Made by a program: the position numbers and the translations under genes
DNA from: Candidatus Desulfobia pelagia
GTDB lineage: Bacteria > Desulfobacterota > Desulfobulbia > Desulfobulbales > SURF-16
DNA: 42,716 nucleotides
Assembly: GCA_014382295.1 (NCBI GenBank)
Contig: JACNJZ010000138.1
Location: 1 to 42,716, forward strand
Direction: 5' to 3'
Shown: piece after piece, positions 7,294-42,716 of the stretch
How the letters are laid out: each line of letters starts with the position of its first letter
How positions within the stretch are numbered: the stretch's first letter is position 1
The notes under the pieces: model-generated
What the model was told of the DNA's origin: nothing
Database searches by the model: none
What the model saw: the letters and a program-made list of their open reading frames with translations, nothing else

Positions 7294-7427
7294 GAGGCAC
7301 AAAGGCACAAAGGCACAAAGTAAAAAAACAAACGCCGACCAGACAAACAATTATTTTCAGTCGTTATGTCTCCATCTCGCCTGTCTTCGTCATTAACCTT
7401 AGTGCCTTTCTGCCTTTGTGCCTGTCT
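7294..7427. repeat. inverted repeat built from a short tandem motif
   Basis: 7295-7320 holds three copies of the 9-base unit AGGCACAAA. The sequence at 7401-7424 is its inverted counterpart (AGTGCCTTTCTGCCTTTGTG...); about 21 of 22 bases pair. The arms are separated by about 80 bases with no credible gene. It lies between the convergent YrfG-like and UPF0280 genes. It looks like the intergenic repeats at 17625-17712 and the arms around the GxxExxY gene. Confidence 0.7.
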
Positions 7428-7436
7428 TTTACAAGC

Positions 7437-17624: not shown

Positions 17625-17712
17625 ACACCTCGAAGGACACAGAGAACTCGAAGAAAAGATATAAACATTTTTTAAAAACTTCGTGTCCTTCGTGGTCTTA
17701 GTGGTTAAAAAA
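17625..17712. repeat. intergenic inverted repeat with CGAAGGACAC arms
   Basis: CGAAGGACAC at 17631-17640 is matched by its reverse complement GTGTCCTTCG at 17683-17692, with further imperfect pairing on both sides (CTTCGTGTCC... and GTGGTCTTAGTGG). The loop is about 40 bases and AT-rich. The sequence style (short CGTG/CCACGAA units) resembles the 28-base arms around the GxxExxY gene at 38269-38696. No gene lies inside. Confidence 0.65.
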
Positions 17713-24210: not shown

Positions 24211-24266
24211 ATTTCAGATTTCGGATTTCGGATTTCGGATTTCGGATTTCGGATTTCGGATTTCGG
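24211..24266. repeat. heptanucleotide tandem repeat (ATTTCGG, 8 units)
   Basis: Eight head-to-tail 7-base units run from 24211 to 24266; the first is ATTTCAG and the other seven are ATTTCGG. They lie between the PilZ-like gene and the lysR start, about 90 bases upstream of the latter. Unit length is not a multiple of three, but no ORF crosses it. Such arrays can change copy number by slippage and so alter promoter spacing. Confidence 0.95.
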
Positions 24267-24357
24267 AATATGGTTCTTCGATGGTTCTTCCGCAATAAAA
24301 AATCAACTCTATGACTCCGTGAGAAACTTTCAGCTAAAAAGATCAGGGGAATAATCA

Positions 24358-35663: not shown

Positions 35664-36059
35664 TTACCAGATTGATTTCACATGCTCATAACGCTGAATT
35701 TTCTCGTCCTTCGTAACAATTGGCAACCCGAGGGAAAGCGCTGTTGCTACAATAATGCGATCGGCAGGATCCTGATGAAACAAACCCGGTAAATTAACAG
35801 AACGCAGGGCAATGGTATTGTCTACAGGAACAAAACTAACAAATGGAAGGGCTTCTGTTTTTCGTATCCAGTCCCGCACATCGATTGAAAATTCAAGTCT
35901 GCCTTTCTGAACCAGCATTGCAATTTCCCATGTACTCATGGAAGAAATGACGACACCCTGTTCAGCTGATGCCCCCTGAATAGCCTGCCTTGCCTTTTTT
36001 GACAAGGTTTCAGGTTCACTAACCCACCAAAGCCAGATATGTGTATCAAGCACTATCAT
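35664..36059 (-). CDS. VapC-type PIN-domain toxin
   Basis: A 131-residue PIN-domain ribonuclease. The acidic residues are D4 in MIVLDTHIW, E of SMSTWEIA, and the pair in HQDPADRIIVATA, the typical four-acid layout. It resembles the Sll0205-like VapC group that pairs with Phd-type antitoxins. I chose ATG 36059 because it overlaps the antitoxin stop (ATGA); the upstream ATG at 36074 would run into the antitoxin gene. The toxin probably cuts a tRNA or rRNA when the antitoxin is degraded. It converges on the PPDK-like gene 22 bases away. Confidence 0.9.
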   Translation of the reverse strand: MIVLDTHIWLWWVSEPETLSKKARQAIQGASAEQGVVISSMSTWEIAMLVQKGRLEFSIDVRDWIRKTEALPFVSFVPVDNTIALRSVNLPGLFHQDPADRIIVATALSLGLPIVTKDEKIQRYEHVKSIW

Positions 36060-36289
36060 TTCAACATGTCCCAATCATTTTCGGCAACAGGTTCCATGGG
36101 GTCCTCATAACGCAGTATAGAGTTCCGCAATTCCTTAACAGCGTCCATGGGATCTTCGCGGTAAGGAATAATTTTAAGTACCGGCTTGGTGTGATCGGTT
36201 ATGATCAAGGGCTGACCCGTTTGCTGTACTTGGCGGAAATACTTGAGAGCCTGAGGTTTAAATTTAGATTTTGAAATGCTCTTTTCCAT
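36056..36289 (-). CDS. Phd/YefM-type antitoxin
   Basis: A 77-residue antitoxin. KFKPQALKYFRQVQQTGQPLIITDHTKPV (spanning about 10-38) fits the Phd/YefM DNA-binding fold, followed by an acidic C-terminus (LRYEDPMEP, ENDWDML) that would embrace the toxin. It starts the two-gene operon with the PIN toxin. A dyad at 36325-36346 lies 36 bases upstream and is a candidate operator for autoregulation. Confidence 0.88.
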   Translation of the reverse strand: MEKSISKSKFKPQALKYFRQVQQTGQPLIITDHTKPVLKIIPYREDPMDAVKELRNSILRYEDPMEPVAENDWDMLK

Positions 36290-36405: not shown

Positions 36406-37548
36406 TCAGACAAGCTGGGCAAGTACCTGATTGGCAACTGGCAGTGCAACCGGGGTAAGACGCAGAAAACCATTCTGCGTTTCCAGAAGATTACGATTTT
36501 CCAATTCTGTCAATTTTTCTCCGTAATACTCATCTGGAGTCAGGCCGAAACGTTCTTTCATCTCCGCAATTCGAACTCCGCACAACATGCGAAGGCCCAT
36601 AATGATAGTTTCCCGGAAACGGGACGAACGGCTCAAAAATTCAACCGATAAAATGGGCTGTTCATTCTTTTTTAACATCTTTGAAAAACGCAAGGGATCA
36701 TTCTCATTACATACCCTCAAACCATGTAGGCCGCTGACAGAACCCGCTCCCAGTCCGAGATACGACCTGTTTCTCCAATAGTGAATATTATGCCTGCATT
36801 CAAATCCTTTTCTGGCAAAATTGGAAATTTCGTATTGCTGAAAATCAGGTGAAATCATTTCAGCAGTCATCACTTCCATATCTGCCAATTCATCTTCCGT
36901 TGGCAGAACCGCTTTTTTCTCAGCAACCTGTATGGCAAGAGGTGTCTTCTCCTCAACCATCAGCTCATAGAGTGACACATGCTGTATCCCCATTGAAACA
37001 GCAGCAGCCAAAGACTGACGCCAATGCTCCGTCGTCTGTCCAGGCAAACCATATATCAGATCAATATTGATGTTTGAAAAACCTGCCTGTCCGGCCTTCT
37101 CTATGGCCCGCTGTGCCTCTAAAGCAGAATGACTTCGGCCTATCGTCTGCAAAAGAGCATCATCAAAAGACTGGACACCGATACTCAGCCTGTTGACCCC
37201 AGCCTGACGGAGCGCGAGCAAGGTCTGGCTGTCTGCTGTATTGGGGTTGGATTCCACGGTAATCTCCGGCCTGGAAATAAACCGATACCTGTGCAGAGCT
37301 TCTCCAATGAGGGCAACAAGGGTTTCAGCTCCCAGAACCGTTGGCGTTCCGCCGCCAATGTACAGAGAGTGGAAGGTCTGATCACGGCACCAGGGGTGTT
37401 CAGCCATGACGACCAGCTGCCGGAGAAGAGCTTCAACATAGGAATCAACATCCTGTCCCATCAGGGGATAGGAATTAAAGGAGCAGTAACTGCATTTACT
37501 GAGGCAAAAGGGGATGTGAATATAGAGGCCGGCGCCGGAGGAACTCAT
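36406..37548 (-). CDS. hemW: HemW-type radical SAM heme chaperone
   Basis: A 380-residue radical SAM protein. The cluster motif is CLSKCSYCSF (C15, C19, C22 from the chosen start) and the GGGTPT motif follows at about residue 63. The CSYCSF form and the length fit HemW, the heme chaperone once annotated as an oxygen-independent coproporphyrinogen oxidase; true HemN usually has an extra cysteine. I chose ATG 37548 because it overlaps the radC stop (ATGA); an in-frame ATG at 37569 adds seven residues. It is the last gene of the gatB-radC-hemW run. Confidence 0.9.
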   Translation of the reverse strand: MSSSGAGLYIHIPFCLSKCSYCSFNSYPLMGQDVDSYVEALLRQLVVMAEHPWCRDQTFHSLYIGGGTPTVLGAETLVALIGEALHRYRFISRPEITVESNPNTADSQTLLALRQAGVNRLSIGVQSFDDALLQTIGRSHSALEAQRAIEKAGQAGFSNINIDLIYGLPGQTTEHWRQSLAAAVSMGIQHVSLYELMVEEKTPLAIQVAEKKAVLPTEDELADMEVMTAEMISPDFQQYEISNFARKGFECRHNIHYWRNRSYLGLGAGSVSGLHGLRVCNENDPLRFSKMLKKNEQPILSVEFLSRSSRFRETIIMGLRMLCGVRIAEMKERFGLTPDEYYGEKLTELENRNLLETQNGFLRLTPVALPVANQVLAQLV

Positions 37549-38282
37549 TGCTTCAAAAGATTCCGGCATTCCTGTTTAATCTCTTCCATGAGGCCGTGGT
37601 CGGCAAAGCTGAAAGGTTTCTCCTGGTGGCCAATGATCAGGTGATCAAGGAGCTGGATATCCATTACCGAACAGGCCAGAAACAGATTTTTTGTCAATGT
37701 CCGGTCAGCGGCAGAAGGGACCTGGGAGCCGGTTGGATGATTATGGGCGATAACAAGTGCTGCTGCATTATTTTCCAAAACCATCTTGATAAGTTCCCGG
37801 GGGTAAATAGTATTACTCGACAGTGTTCCTTCAAAAACCGTCAGGGCATCTATGATGGCAAGACCGGCATCAAGAAGAATGACCTTGAAAACTTCTTTTT
37901 TTAGGTGGCGCATGGAGTGATTGAGATACTCGGAAACTTCACTGGACGACCGGAGATAGTCTTTATGCTGAAGACGCTGGTTCAAGTAACGGCGGGCTAC
38001 ACTCTGGATAAAAGAGACAACAAATCCGTTCTGGGCTCCGATTCCCTTGACCTCCTGAAGTGCCTCGGGCGAGGCTTCAAGAACAGCACCAAAAGAGCCA
38101 AATTGCTTAAGCAGAGCCCGGGCTTCCTGCTTACAGTCCTTCCGGGGGGTTCCCAGAGTAAGAAGAAGCTCCAGCACCTCATCATCATTAAGAGCCTCCA
38201 GCCCGCGAGCCAGAAACTTCTCCCGCAGCCGCTGCCGGTGCCCTTTGGTCTTATCTTCAAGTATTTTAGCCACTAAACCCAC
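37545..38282 (-). CDS. radC: RadC family JAB-domain protein
   Basis: A 245-residue protein with an N-terminal helix-hairpin-helix-like region (about 30-95) and a JAB/MPN metalloprotease-like domain with E151, the H180-N-H182-P motif and D193 in PSAADRT. RadC was named for DNA repair but its activity is not established. The start is GTG 38282, which lies inside the left 28-base arm of the GxxExxY element (38269-38296). The first few residues are therefore encoded by the repeat, and the original start of radC may have been lost or replaced. A GTG at 38273 is an alternative. Confidence 0.88.
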   Translation of the reverse strand: MGLVAKILEDKTKGHRQRLREKFLARGLEALNDDEVLELLLTLGTPRKDCKQEARALLKQFGSFGAVLEASPEALQEVKGIGAQNGFVVSFIQSVARRYLNQRLQHKDYLRSSSEVSEYLNHSMRHLKKEVFKVILLDAGLAIIDALTVFEGTLSSNTIYPRELIKMVLENNAAALVIAHNHPTGSQVPSAADRTLTKNLFLACSVMDIQLLDHLIIGHQEKPFSFADHGLMEEIKQECRNLLKQ

Positions 38283-38696
38283 AAAAAAACACGAAATTAT
38301 AAAACATATCTTTTAATTGTCGCCTTCGGATAAGCGAAGTTCACAAGCAATCCAACTTCTATGCCTGTAGCCTTGAGATAATTTATGATCTGAGTTTCAT
38401 GAGCTTTATGTAGATTGCTTTGTGCCTTCAACTCAATAATTATTTTGTTAGTTACAACAATATCAGCAAGGTAGTCCCCGACAACCTCTCCTTTATACAT
38501 AACTTGGATTGGTTTCTGAACCTCAACAGTAAAACCTTGTCTCTCTAATTCTATTCGCAAGGCCTTCTCATAAACCTTTTCCAGAAAGCCATGCCCCAGC
38601 TCTTTATAGACGGCAAAAACACACCCGCTTATTTGATAAACAAGTTCTTTTTCAACAAGTATTTTCACTTTCGTGTTTTTTCGTGGGTTTCGTGGC
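38269..38696. mobile_element. GxxExxY gene element with 28-bp terminal inverted repeats
   Basis: The arms at 38269-38296 and 38669-38696 are inverted copies with 26 of 28 bases alike; they are built of CGTG/CCACGAA units such as AACCCACGAAAAAACACG. They enclose exactly the GxxExxY gene, whose GTG start directly follows one arm. The 428-base unit lies between gatB and radC. No obvious target duplication is seen. No transposase is present. Calling it mobile is inference from structure. Confidence 0.7.
38297..38668 (-). CDS. GxxExxY protein
   Basis: A 123-residue protein of the GxxExxY family. The naming motif is GFLEKVYEKAL (G28 to Y34 region), and the later DYLADIVVTNKIIIELKA and YLKATGIEVGLLVNFA have the D-x(n)-ExK look of PD-(D/E)XK nucleases. 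The biological role is unknown; the family occurs in multiple copies in some environmental bacteria. The start is GTG 38668, directly after the inverted-repeat arm. Its stop region touches the other arm. Confidence 0.9.
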   Translation of the reverse strand: MKILVEKELVYQISGCVFAVYKELGHGFLEKVYEKALRIELERQGFTVEVQKPIQVMYKGEVVGDYLADIVVTNKIIIELKAQSNLHKAHETQIINYLKATGIEVGLLVNFAYPKATIKRYVL

Positions 38697-38704
38697 CGGA
38701 TAAT

Positions 38705-40138
38705 CTATTTATTCAATTCCTTTATAAACAGCTCATTGGCCATTTTGGGATTAGCCTTGCCCTTGGTTTTCTGCATAAGCTGACCAACGAAAAAACCCAT
38801 CACTTTGGTTTTGCCAGCCCTGAACTGCTCCACCTGATCTGCGTTGTCAGCCAGGATTTCCTGAACAATTTTAAGGAGATCCCCTTCATCGCTCATCTGA
38901 ACCAGGTTTTTCTCTTTAACAATCGTCTCCGGATCCTTACCACTGCCCATCATCTCTTCAAACACGGTCTTGGCAATTTTACCGCTGATCGTGCCCTTAT
39001 CTATCATTCCAAGCAGGCCCCCCAGATTTTCAGGTGAAACAGGGAAGGCACTGACATCTATGCCGTCTTCCCCCTTCAACTCCCGGAGCATCTCGGTCTT
39101 TATCCAGTTTCCAAGCTTTGTTGCGTTGGCATAACCGGCCAGGGCCGCCTCAAAATAATCAGCCAGCTCCCGGGATGTCGTCAGGATTGAAGCATCCTCT
39201 TCTCCAAGGCCCAGCTCGGAGATAAAGCGCCCTTTCTTGTCATCAGGTAATTCCGGCATGCTTTCTTTAATGCTGGACACCCACTCTTCATCAATGACAA
39301 CCGGCACCAGATCAGGATCCGGGAAATAACGATAATCATGGGCCTCTTCCTTGCCGCGCATGGAAGAGGAAACATTGCGATCCGGGTCCCAGAGCAAGGT
39401 CTCCTGCACGACTTTTCCACCGTCGAGCAAAATATCTCTCTGCCGCCGTTCTTCATATTCCAGGGCCCGCTGCACATTGCGGAAAGAATTCATATTCTTC
39501 AGCTCCGTGCGGGTCCCTAGCTTTTCCTGTCCTACAGGCCTCAGGGAAATATTGGCATCGCAACGGAAACTTCCCTCCTGCATATTGCCGTCGCAGATGT
39601 CCAGATAACGAAGAATAGCATGAAGTTTTTTCAGGTATGCTGCTGCCTCTGCTGCAGAGCGAATATCCGGTTCGCTGACGATTTCTATCAGCGGCACCCC
39701 TGTTCTATTCAGGTCCACATAGCTCAGGGGCTGCGTTTCATCATGGACCAGCTTGCCGGCATCTTCTTCCATATGTATTCGAGTCAAACCAATACGCCTG
39801 ACACTCCCGTCAACCTCAACATCAACGAAGCCATGCTCAGCGATCGGCAGCTCAAACTGGGATATCTGATACCCTTTGGGAAGATCAGGATAGAAATAAT
39901 TCTTGCGGGCAAACTGATTGAGTTCACCAATTTCACAATGGGTGGCAAGGGCCATTTTAATGGCATACTCAACCACTTTTTTATTCAGCACCGGCAAAAC
40001 ACCTGGCATCCCAAGGCATACCGGACAGGTATTTGAGTTTGGGGGGTTGCCGAATGTCGTGGTGCAGCCGCAGAATATCTTGGTGGTGGTTTTCATCTGG
40101 GCATGGATTTCCAGCCCGATCACAGTTTCAAAATCCAT
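38705..40138 (-). CDS. gatB: Asp-tRNA(Asn)/Glu-tRNA(Gln) amidotransferase subunit B
   Basis: A 477-residue subunit that binds the mischarged tRNA, activates its side chain with ATP and receives ammonia from GatA. The start [20 protein letters not shown], the zinc-binding CxxC pair (FCGC and CPVC), and the [10 protein letters not shown] region are typical. The C-terminal YqeY/tail domain (about 330-477) is present. It is 17 kb away from gatCA and on the other strand. It heads the gatB-GxxExxY-radC-hemW run. Confidence 0.97.
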
Positions 40139-42141: not shown

Positions 42142-42486
42142 TTATAGTTTGAGAACCAGCTTCAAGCCCTCGTCGACTTGGTCTATGATATTGTTGGGTA
42201 GATGGTGAACTTTTTCAGTTAATAATGCTTTGTCGATGGTGATAACTTGAGAAATGTTGATAACACTTTCTTTGGACAACTTGGAACTTTTGCTGGATAA
42301 AAGTATATTTCCTGGGGCTGCCGCTAAGCGTAAATTTGAGGTAATTACAACGGCAATAATGGTGTTTATTTTGCTTTTGTTGAATTCGTTTGATTGAATT
42401 ATGAGTAGTGGCCTTTTGTAGCCCGGCTCTGAACCTACAGGCTCGGGTAACTCGACCCACCAAATGTCTCCGCGTTTTATTACCAT
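42142..42486 (-). CDS. MazF/PemK-type toxin
   Basis: A 114-residue endoribonuclease of the MazF (PemK) family. KRGDIWWVELPEPVGSEPGYKRP (from residue 4) is the usual start with the RGDIWWV strand and the E/G-loop to KRP; NTIIAVVITSNL and SVINISQVITID are the two other conserved strands. MazF cuts mRNA at short sequences. It overlaps its antitoxin by seven bases, with the antitoxin first. Confidence 0.92.
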   Translation of the reverse strand: MVIKRGDIWWVELPEPVGSEPGYKRPLLIIQSNEFNKSKINTIIAVVITSNLRLAAAPGNILLSSKSSKLSKESVINISQVITIDKALLTEKVHHLPNNIIDQVDEGLKLVLKL

Positions 42487-42716
42487 TCTTCTTTTTCTAT
42501 TGAACTGAACTGCATAGTTGAAATGGTACTATTTAATTTTGCAGGCTCGGAAGAGTAGATTTCATTTAGCTGTTTAGTGATGAGACCAGGAGGGTGTTGT
42601 TCAAGAAATTTTGCAACAGCTTCGGCGTATAGCTTGCTTCGCGAAACCCCATGGTTTTTTGCGTACTGGTCAGCTGCACGAAATAGTTTGTCTGGTATTG
42701 AGATTGCAGTTTTCAT
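42480..42716 (-). CDS. MazE-like ribbon-helix-helix antitoxin
   Basis: A 78-residue antitoxin. MKTAISIPDKLFRAADQYAK is a ribbon-helix-helix start, with GVSRSKLYAEAVAKFL as its helices; the C-terminal half is a likely toxin-binding tail. The ATG is at the last base of the window (42716), so its promoter is outside, and the gene could extend further upstream although the start looks natural. It pairs with the MazF gene. Confidence 0.85.
   Translation of the reverse strand: MKTAISIPDKLFRAADQYAKNHGVSRSKLYAEAVAKFLEQHPPGLITKQLNEIYSSEPAKLNSTISTMQFSSIEKEEW

Follow-up and report, generated by a model that had tools for sequence, protein, structure and literature searches.

Among described systems, the best analogy to the locus presented here is REPIN-RAYT, in which a conserved, distinct single-copy gene is flanked by repeats, gene-less inverted doublets are found, and the type of repeat is tied to the enzyme (PMC3116915, PMC8049555). 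A second point of reference is the intervening sequence (IVS) of Coxiella 23S rRNA, which encodes a four-helix-bundle family and in which tandem heptamers precede the open reading frame (PMC4990558). Many bacteria also have "multicopy" repeats dispersed between their genes for which there is no explanation (e.g. PMC2996986). For the GxxExxY family (TIGR04256/PF13366), our searches of open-licence PMC papers returned no functional paper on these profiles or on the arm sequences considered below, and no description of flanking arms or gene-less units.

We analysed a stretch of 42,716 nucleotides from Candidatus Desulfobia pelagia (the window). Between the host genes gatB and radC it carries a unit, 38269-38696, that consists of a GxxExxY gene bracketed by inverted arms. 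The features are as follows, with G001 denoting the sister species.

38705..40138, minus strand: gatB, host gene, upstream neighbour; 91% identical in G001 and conserved across the order
38669..38696, no strand: gatB-side inverted arm; matches the class-A pattern exactly
38297..38668, minus strand: GxxExxY gene, 123 aa; TIGR04256 and PF13366 profile matches, conserved nuclease motif
38269..38296, no strand: radC-side inverted arm; inverted match to the gatB-side arm at 26/28 bases, with two cores slightly decayed
38271..38273, minus strand: likely radC start GTG, within the radC-side arm; from the in-frame start scan
37545..38282, minus strand: radC, host gene, downstream neighbour; NF000642 and PF04002 matches

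All three genes run in the same direction on the minus strand. The arms match at 26 of 28 bases, a longer alignment extends over 35 nt at 86%, and shuffled window sequence gave no such match. Each arm is built of three cores at 9-10 nt spacing; read on the minus strand, the gatB-side arm is GCCACGAAA CCCACGAAAA AACACGAAA, that is, three CACGAAA cores, and it has homologues in G001 and in f4 genomes. The GTG start of the GxxExxY gene follows directly after this arm. At the other end, the only usable radC starts are the GTG codons at 38271-38273 and 38280-38282 (minus strand), both inside the radC-side arm, and no in-frame start upstream of the conserved domain lies outside that arm. The arm's outer end, GTGGC, supplies the likely radC GTG start and is kept in the genome of Candidatus Desulfobia pelagia itself (G000) as well as in G001, G011 and G015. 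The preliminary description had placed the gene within inverted arms, starting directly at one of them and leaving the radC start inside the other, and the arm alignment, profile matches and start scan bear it out on each point. Ordinary terminators, which it had raised as another identity for the arms, were rejected: a scan of the locus found no terminator-like site there, and the T runs before the stem and the A runs after it lie outside the arms, on the wrong side for intrinsic termination. A known structured RNA was likewise set aside, as the unit has no Rfam match. Two apparent toxin-antitoxin pairs lie elsewhere in the window, one at 35664-36289 (a Phd-family antitoxin and a small PIN-like open reading frame without an NCBIfam match) and one at 42142-42716 (a MazF/ChpB-like toxin with an antitoxin-like open reading frame upstream).

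The encoded protein is a full-length family member, scoring 144.4 bits against TIGR04256 (cut-off 35) and 141.8 bits against PF13366 (PDDEXK_3; cut-off 22). A weak Cas4 match aside, it matches these profiles only, and it has no Y1 HUH transposase match. The signature G27xxE30xxY33 is present and is conserved in 62 aligned relatives. D69 occurs in 110/111, E79 in 106/111 and K81 in 111/111; together, D69, E79-x-K81 and Q93-x-x-x-Y97 form a nearly invariant motif of the RecB/Cas4 type, from which an active DNA nuclease would be expected. The best solved structures retrieved by Foldseek with the AlphaFold model (mean pLDDT 95.1) were Cas4 SSO0001 (4.1e-5), LHK-Exo, MGME1 and lambda exonuclease; a sequence search of the PDB gave nothing useful. 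We are confident in the predicted assignment of this protein as a minimal PD-(D/E)XK nuclease akin in type to Cas4 and lambda exonuclease, and the earlier reading of its ExK motif as nuclease-like agrees with the intact D..ExK..QxxxY motif and the predicted fold. Fold and motif are shared with Cas4, lambda exonuclease and MGME1, but the GxxExxY protein has only 123 residues; it also differs from Cas4 in its single cysteine, and thus in being without the four-cysteine iron-sulphur site, and in having gatB and radC rather than cas genes as neighbours. We rejected a role as a defence-system gene, for which there were only weak Cas4 profile matches.

The gene appears to be long retained. Its pairwise dN/dS of 0.06-0.12 within genus g35 denotes strong purifying selection. 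Genomes carry one distinct GxxExxY copy per lineage, and copies within one genome are 33-58% identical, never higher. The protein has no PHROG match, and on mobile replicons the family was found in one phage (two records) and in 8 of 72,556 plasmid records, a near absence that led us to reject phage or plasmid cargo. Overall, the distribution of the family is patchy and pseudogenes are numerous.

Arms like those of the window accompany the family widely. We took 126 distinct GxxExxY loci, some of them in the order and others in named genomes from many phyla (Bacteroidota, Desulfobacterota, Pseudomonadota, Ignavibacteriota, Patescibacteria, Planctomycetota, Armatimonadota and others). Inverted flanking arms with a score of at least 28 were present at 86 of them (68%), versus 2 of 333 control positions within the same loci (0.6%), and shuffled flanks gave none. 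Across these loci an arm comprises two to four short cores with a period of 9-10 nt. The core types include CACGAAA, CACGGAA, CACAGAG, CGCAAAG, CACAGAT, CACAGAC and CACGAAT, and the cores within a single element mostly agree.

The type of arm follows the protein. When 69 loci were labelled by the last core letter, from arm sequence alone, and the four states were placed on a maximum-likelihood protein tree, 3 changes sufficed, which is the possible minimum; shuffled labels required a mean of 31.0 changes, and none of 200 shuffles was as low as the observed value. The nearest labelled protein from another genome had the same last letter in 67/69 cases. Several arm types coexist in single genomes, among them G000, G005 (AGAT/AGAA/GGAA), G011 (GAAA/AAAT), G107 (GAAA/GAAG) and G048 (GAAA/AGAG), so host background is not the explanation for the match. 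Units have also become separated from their original flanks, the elements of L060/L075 and L142/L148 sitting in unrelated surroundings. Judged from these comparisons, arms and protein are one co-inherited unit, and a shift in protein lineage is accompanied by a shift in the core. Linkage alone could also give this agreement; that the protein recognizes its arms is nevertheless probable, since the six cores, although separated, change jointly. A candidate specificity residue is residue 10, which is T in 29/35 proteins with core G at the second variable letter and in 0/21 with A; with about four independent contrasts, significance is out of reach and the residue is a lead only.

The adjacency of gatB and radC is conserved throughout the order, and the interval between them displays a range of states. 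The sister species G001 has lost most of the GxxExxY gene, of which the two ends remain together with both arms; G003 retains a 5' gene fragment, and in G011 and G015 only the radC-side arm remains, its GTGGC reading into radC. In g35, which belongs to another family of the order, the interval is empty (17-18 bp) in G134 and G082, holds an intact unit in G067, G104, G128, G077 and G107, and is occupied by stubs with one or both arms in G073, G110, G102 and G125; in G107 the intact unit lies in tandem with one that has an internal deletion. G087, of genus g33, has an intact unit, and the unit of G054 is frameshifted. This range of site states in two families suggests that the unit is old or was inserted more than once, and the remnants in G001 and G107 indicate that it decays to a gene-less form by internal deletion. 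In G073, G110 and G102 (L360, L362 and L364), a membrane-protein-like open reading frame of ~100 aa lies in the decayed unit, beside the remaining arm.

The genome of Candidatus Desulfobia pelagia (3.0 Mb, 97% complete) contains only two GxxExxY genes, the window copy and a copy on contig C141 with AAAG-type arms and 33% protein identity to it. The 28-nt arm, allowing up to 3 mismatches, occurs nine times, versus zero for the reversed control: two arms at gatB-radC, an inverted pair on C56, one on C134, and singles on C126, C21, C157 and C162. The C56 pair forms a 208-bp unit without a gene, and C134 has a ~126-bp gene-less unit, one arm of which is counted among the nine matches. Arrays of the CACAGAG type number 32, and inverted pairs of this type, about 60-110 bp, are carried by C97 and C98. 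The window itself holds a gene-less unit of ~85 bp between two genes at 17627-17711, with GAAG-type GxxExxY arms (CCTCGAAGGACACAGAGAACTCGAAG / CTTCGTGTCCTTCGTGGTCTTAGTGG). At the site in G006 (L325, C35) homologous to the C56 unit there is an iterated inverted repeat of 10-nt period and GACCAATAAGACC type.

Other genomes show the same pattern. Exact arrays of three CACGAAA cores were found in 25/146 genomes. Those of three CACAGAG cores were found in 22/146 and reach 108 in a single genome; the reversed-pattern control gave about 0. In the hit list, class-A arm pairs less than 500 bp apart are inverted in the same sense, the exceptions being the junction of two adjacent G107 units and one overlapping array in G073. 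The gene-less units measure about 55-280 bp and their interiors differ; among orthologous units the cores are conserved, whereas the linkers and interiors have drifted. Species of one genus differ in which of dozens of dispersed units they have. G116 and G061 precisely lack a gene-less unit found in G104; since the outgroup G054 also carries one at this site, the difference could be a gain or a loss. Over 41 flank pairs, direct matches of k = 2-9 showed no excess over shuffles that would indicate a target-site duplication. Exact class-A arms at other sites are missing from the g35 genomes that show no trace of the unit at gatB-radC, and number 0-13 in those with a unit or stubs (Mann-Whitney p 0.016, 15 genomes, post hoc grouping). 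G020 (108 arms), G061 and G073 are arm-rich without an intact gene of that class; units could outlast a lost gene, or the assemblies could be incomplete. By these genome comparisons, gene-less arm pairs are dispersed in lineages that have the gene or once had it, and internal deletion of a gene-bearing unit is one way in which such pairs can form.

The preliminary description had suggested that the unit is a selfish and possibly mobile element inserted next to radC. What stands of this is the discrete unit: it is absent from many relatives, down to the 17-18 bp empty sites, and gene-less arm copies lie elsewhere in the genome. The converse picture, in which relatives would always carry the gene here free of repeats, does not hold, since the gene is often absent and its carriers have arms too. 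Recent insertion is the part that finds no support. At gatB-radC we saw neither a target duplication nor a recent jump, and because the unit occupies this site in another family too and the gene is under purifying selection, it is better regarded as an old resident.

A comparable arrangement surrounds a second kind of gene. Like the S23p genes, whose products are four-helix bundles, the GxxExxY gene is a small one (~120 aa) inside inverted arms of short iterated repeats. The protein there is a non-nuclease, however, and the IVS lies in rRNA (Coxiella, Leptospira), whereas the GxxExxY unit lies between gatB and radC. At TIGR02436 four-helix-bundle genes of the same order, of which G000 has 7, inverted arms scoring at least 28 flank 21 of 30, with none after shuffling, and the arm period is exactly 7 nt versus 9-10 nt for GxxExxY arms. 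This suggests that at least two families of genes with iterated arms exist, GxxExxY and four-helix-bundle. The 7-nt-period inverted arms at TIGR02436 loci (L103-L132) are of AGGAGTC, AGTTTCA and GTGAGGA types. Gene-less arrays of the 7-nt type also occupy gatB-radC in relatives without GxxExxY (L018, L019, L022 and L039), so this interval collects several repeat families. In the window, a gene-less inverted pair of 8-nt period at 7295-7430 (GGCACAAAGGCACAAAGGCACAAAG / CTTAGTGCCTTTCTGCCTTTGTGCC) is like some four-helix-bundle gene arms, and eight tandem ATTTCGG 7-mers after a gene at 24211-24267, with no inverted partner seen, resemble the arrays of those arms.

GxxExxY units would work like REPIN-RAYT without being a member of that system. 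Both have a small gene flanked by repeats, many gene-less inverted doublets in intergenic space and a match between repeat type and protein type, and in both the gene persists as distinct single copies, here 33-58% identical and found at the same site in two families. The enzyme differs, being a PD-(D/E)XK nuclease here and a Y1 HUH transposase (TnpA-REP) there, as do the repeats, which are iterated 9-10 nt cores rather than a single REP palindrome; processing of the arms and replication of the units by the GxxExxY protein are putative. With MITEs and insertion sequences the units share terminal inverted repeats, and with MITEs gene-less derivatives by internal deletion (G001, G107), but they lack both a DDE or HUH transposase and near-identical gene copies, and the search for target-site duplications found none. 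Variation in presence is seen, and mobilization in trans by the GxxExxY enzyme, as for MITEs, is putative.

We give about even chances to the proposal that small repeat elements of this kind form a family and that this unit, a nuclease gene between iterated inverted arms, is the member that carries the gene. The GxxExxY protein would bind its own core array, probably with several protomers per arm, and would cut at the arm ends or at a hairpin that the arms may form during replication. Short gene-less units would occasionally be copied or moved by it in trans. The gene itself would rarely move, the host keeping one copy per type, as with RAYT genes for REPINs, and the gatB-radC unit would be of long standing at its site, with the outer end of an arm now supplying the radC start codon. 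As GxxExxY is the best candidate for the enzyme acting on the arms, the preliminary description's statement that the element has no transposase of its own may not hold.

Purifying selection on the gene, its retention at gatB-radC in two families, its rarity on mobile replicons and the keeping of cores in orthologous gene-less units despite drifting linkers and interiors would all fit a stable, non-mobile nuclease gene whose arms are operator arrays for GxxExxY or a host factor, with the gene-less pairs as further binding sites, for example structural or replication-linked. We consider this unlikely, as dozens of dispersed units differ in presence between congeneric species, elements are found in unrelated surroundings, and the family has a patchy distribution and many pseudogenes. 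At the other extreme, GxxExxY could be the transposase of a new class of autonomous insertion sequence, its arms the terminal inverted repeats and the whole unit still moving. One gene within terminal inverted repeats is textbook anatomy for such an element, and the patchy distribution and horizontal spread accord with it, but no genome examined has near-identical copies (at most 58%), no target-site duplication was found, and the unit has long resided at one and the same site in two families, so that we regard this as quite improbable.

Two further readings would assign the arms to other machinery. RAYT/Y1 transposases, present as Y1_Tnp genes in 14/15 unit-bearing genomes, might mobilize the arms as they do REP sequences, with GxxExxY as a passenger. 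Yet arm sequence tracks the GxxExxY tree, the arms flank GxxExxY genes specifically, and G104 (95% complete) has units without a Y1 match; we find this scarcely credible. The enclosure of one small open reading frame by inverted arms also recalls the S23p IVS, and the unit could be a similar intervening element acting in RNA, which RNase III would excise once the arms had paired in a transcript of gatB-radC. The strand fold of the unit is far stronger than that of shuffled sequence (z -5.3), and the Coxiella IVS, with its heptamers ahead of the open reading frame, is likewise 428 nt long (PMC4990558). Such an origin is nonetheless very improbable in our judgement: the unit is intergenic and outside rRNA, where excision brings no obvious benefit, Rfam offers no counterpart, and solo arms and dispersed gene-less DNA units call for a DNA-level explanation.

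A broader proposal, which we advance tentatively as possible rather than probable, is that intragenomic DNA elements of a separate class exist, with GxxExxY proteins as their founding enzymes. A minimal nuclease of the Cas4/lambda-exonuclease type would read an iterated arm code of 9-10 nt that co-evolves with it, and short gene-less units would thereby be copied or moved without a classical transposase. The link to its own repeat code would give a widely annotated family without assigned function a testable one, and would give the repeats a source. If this proposal is true, GxxExxY units would be a second kind of such system, built on an unrelated enzyme, and the four-helix-bundle genes with their 7-nt arms may be a third.
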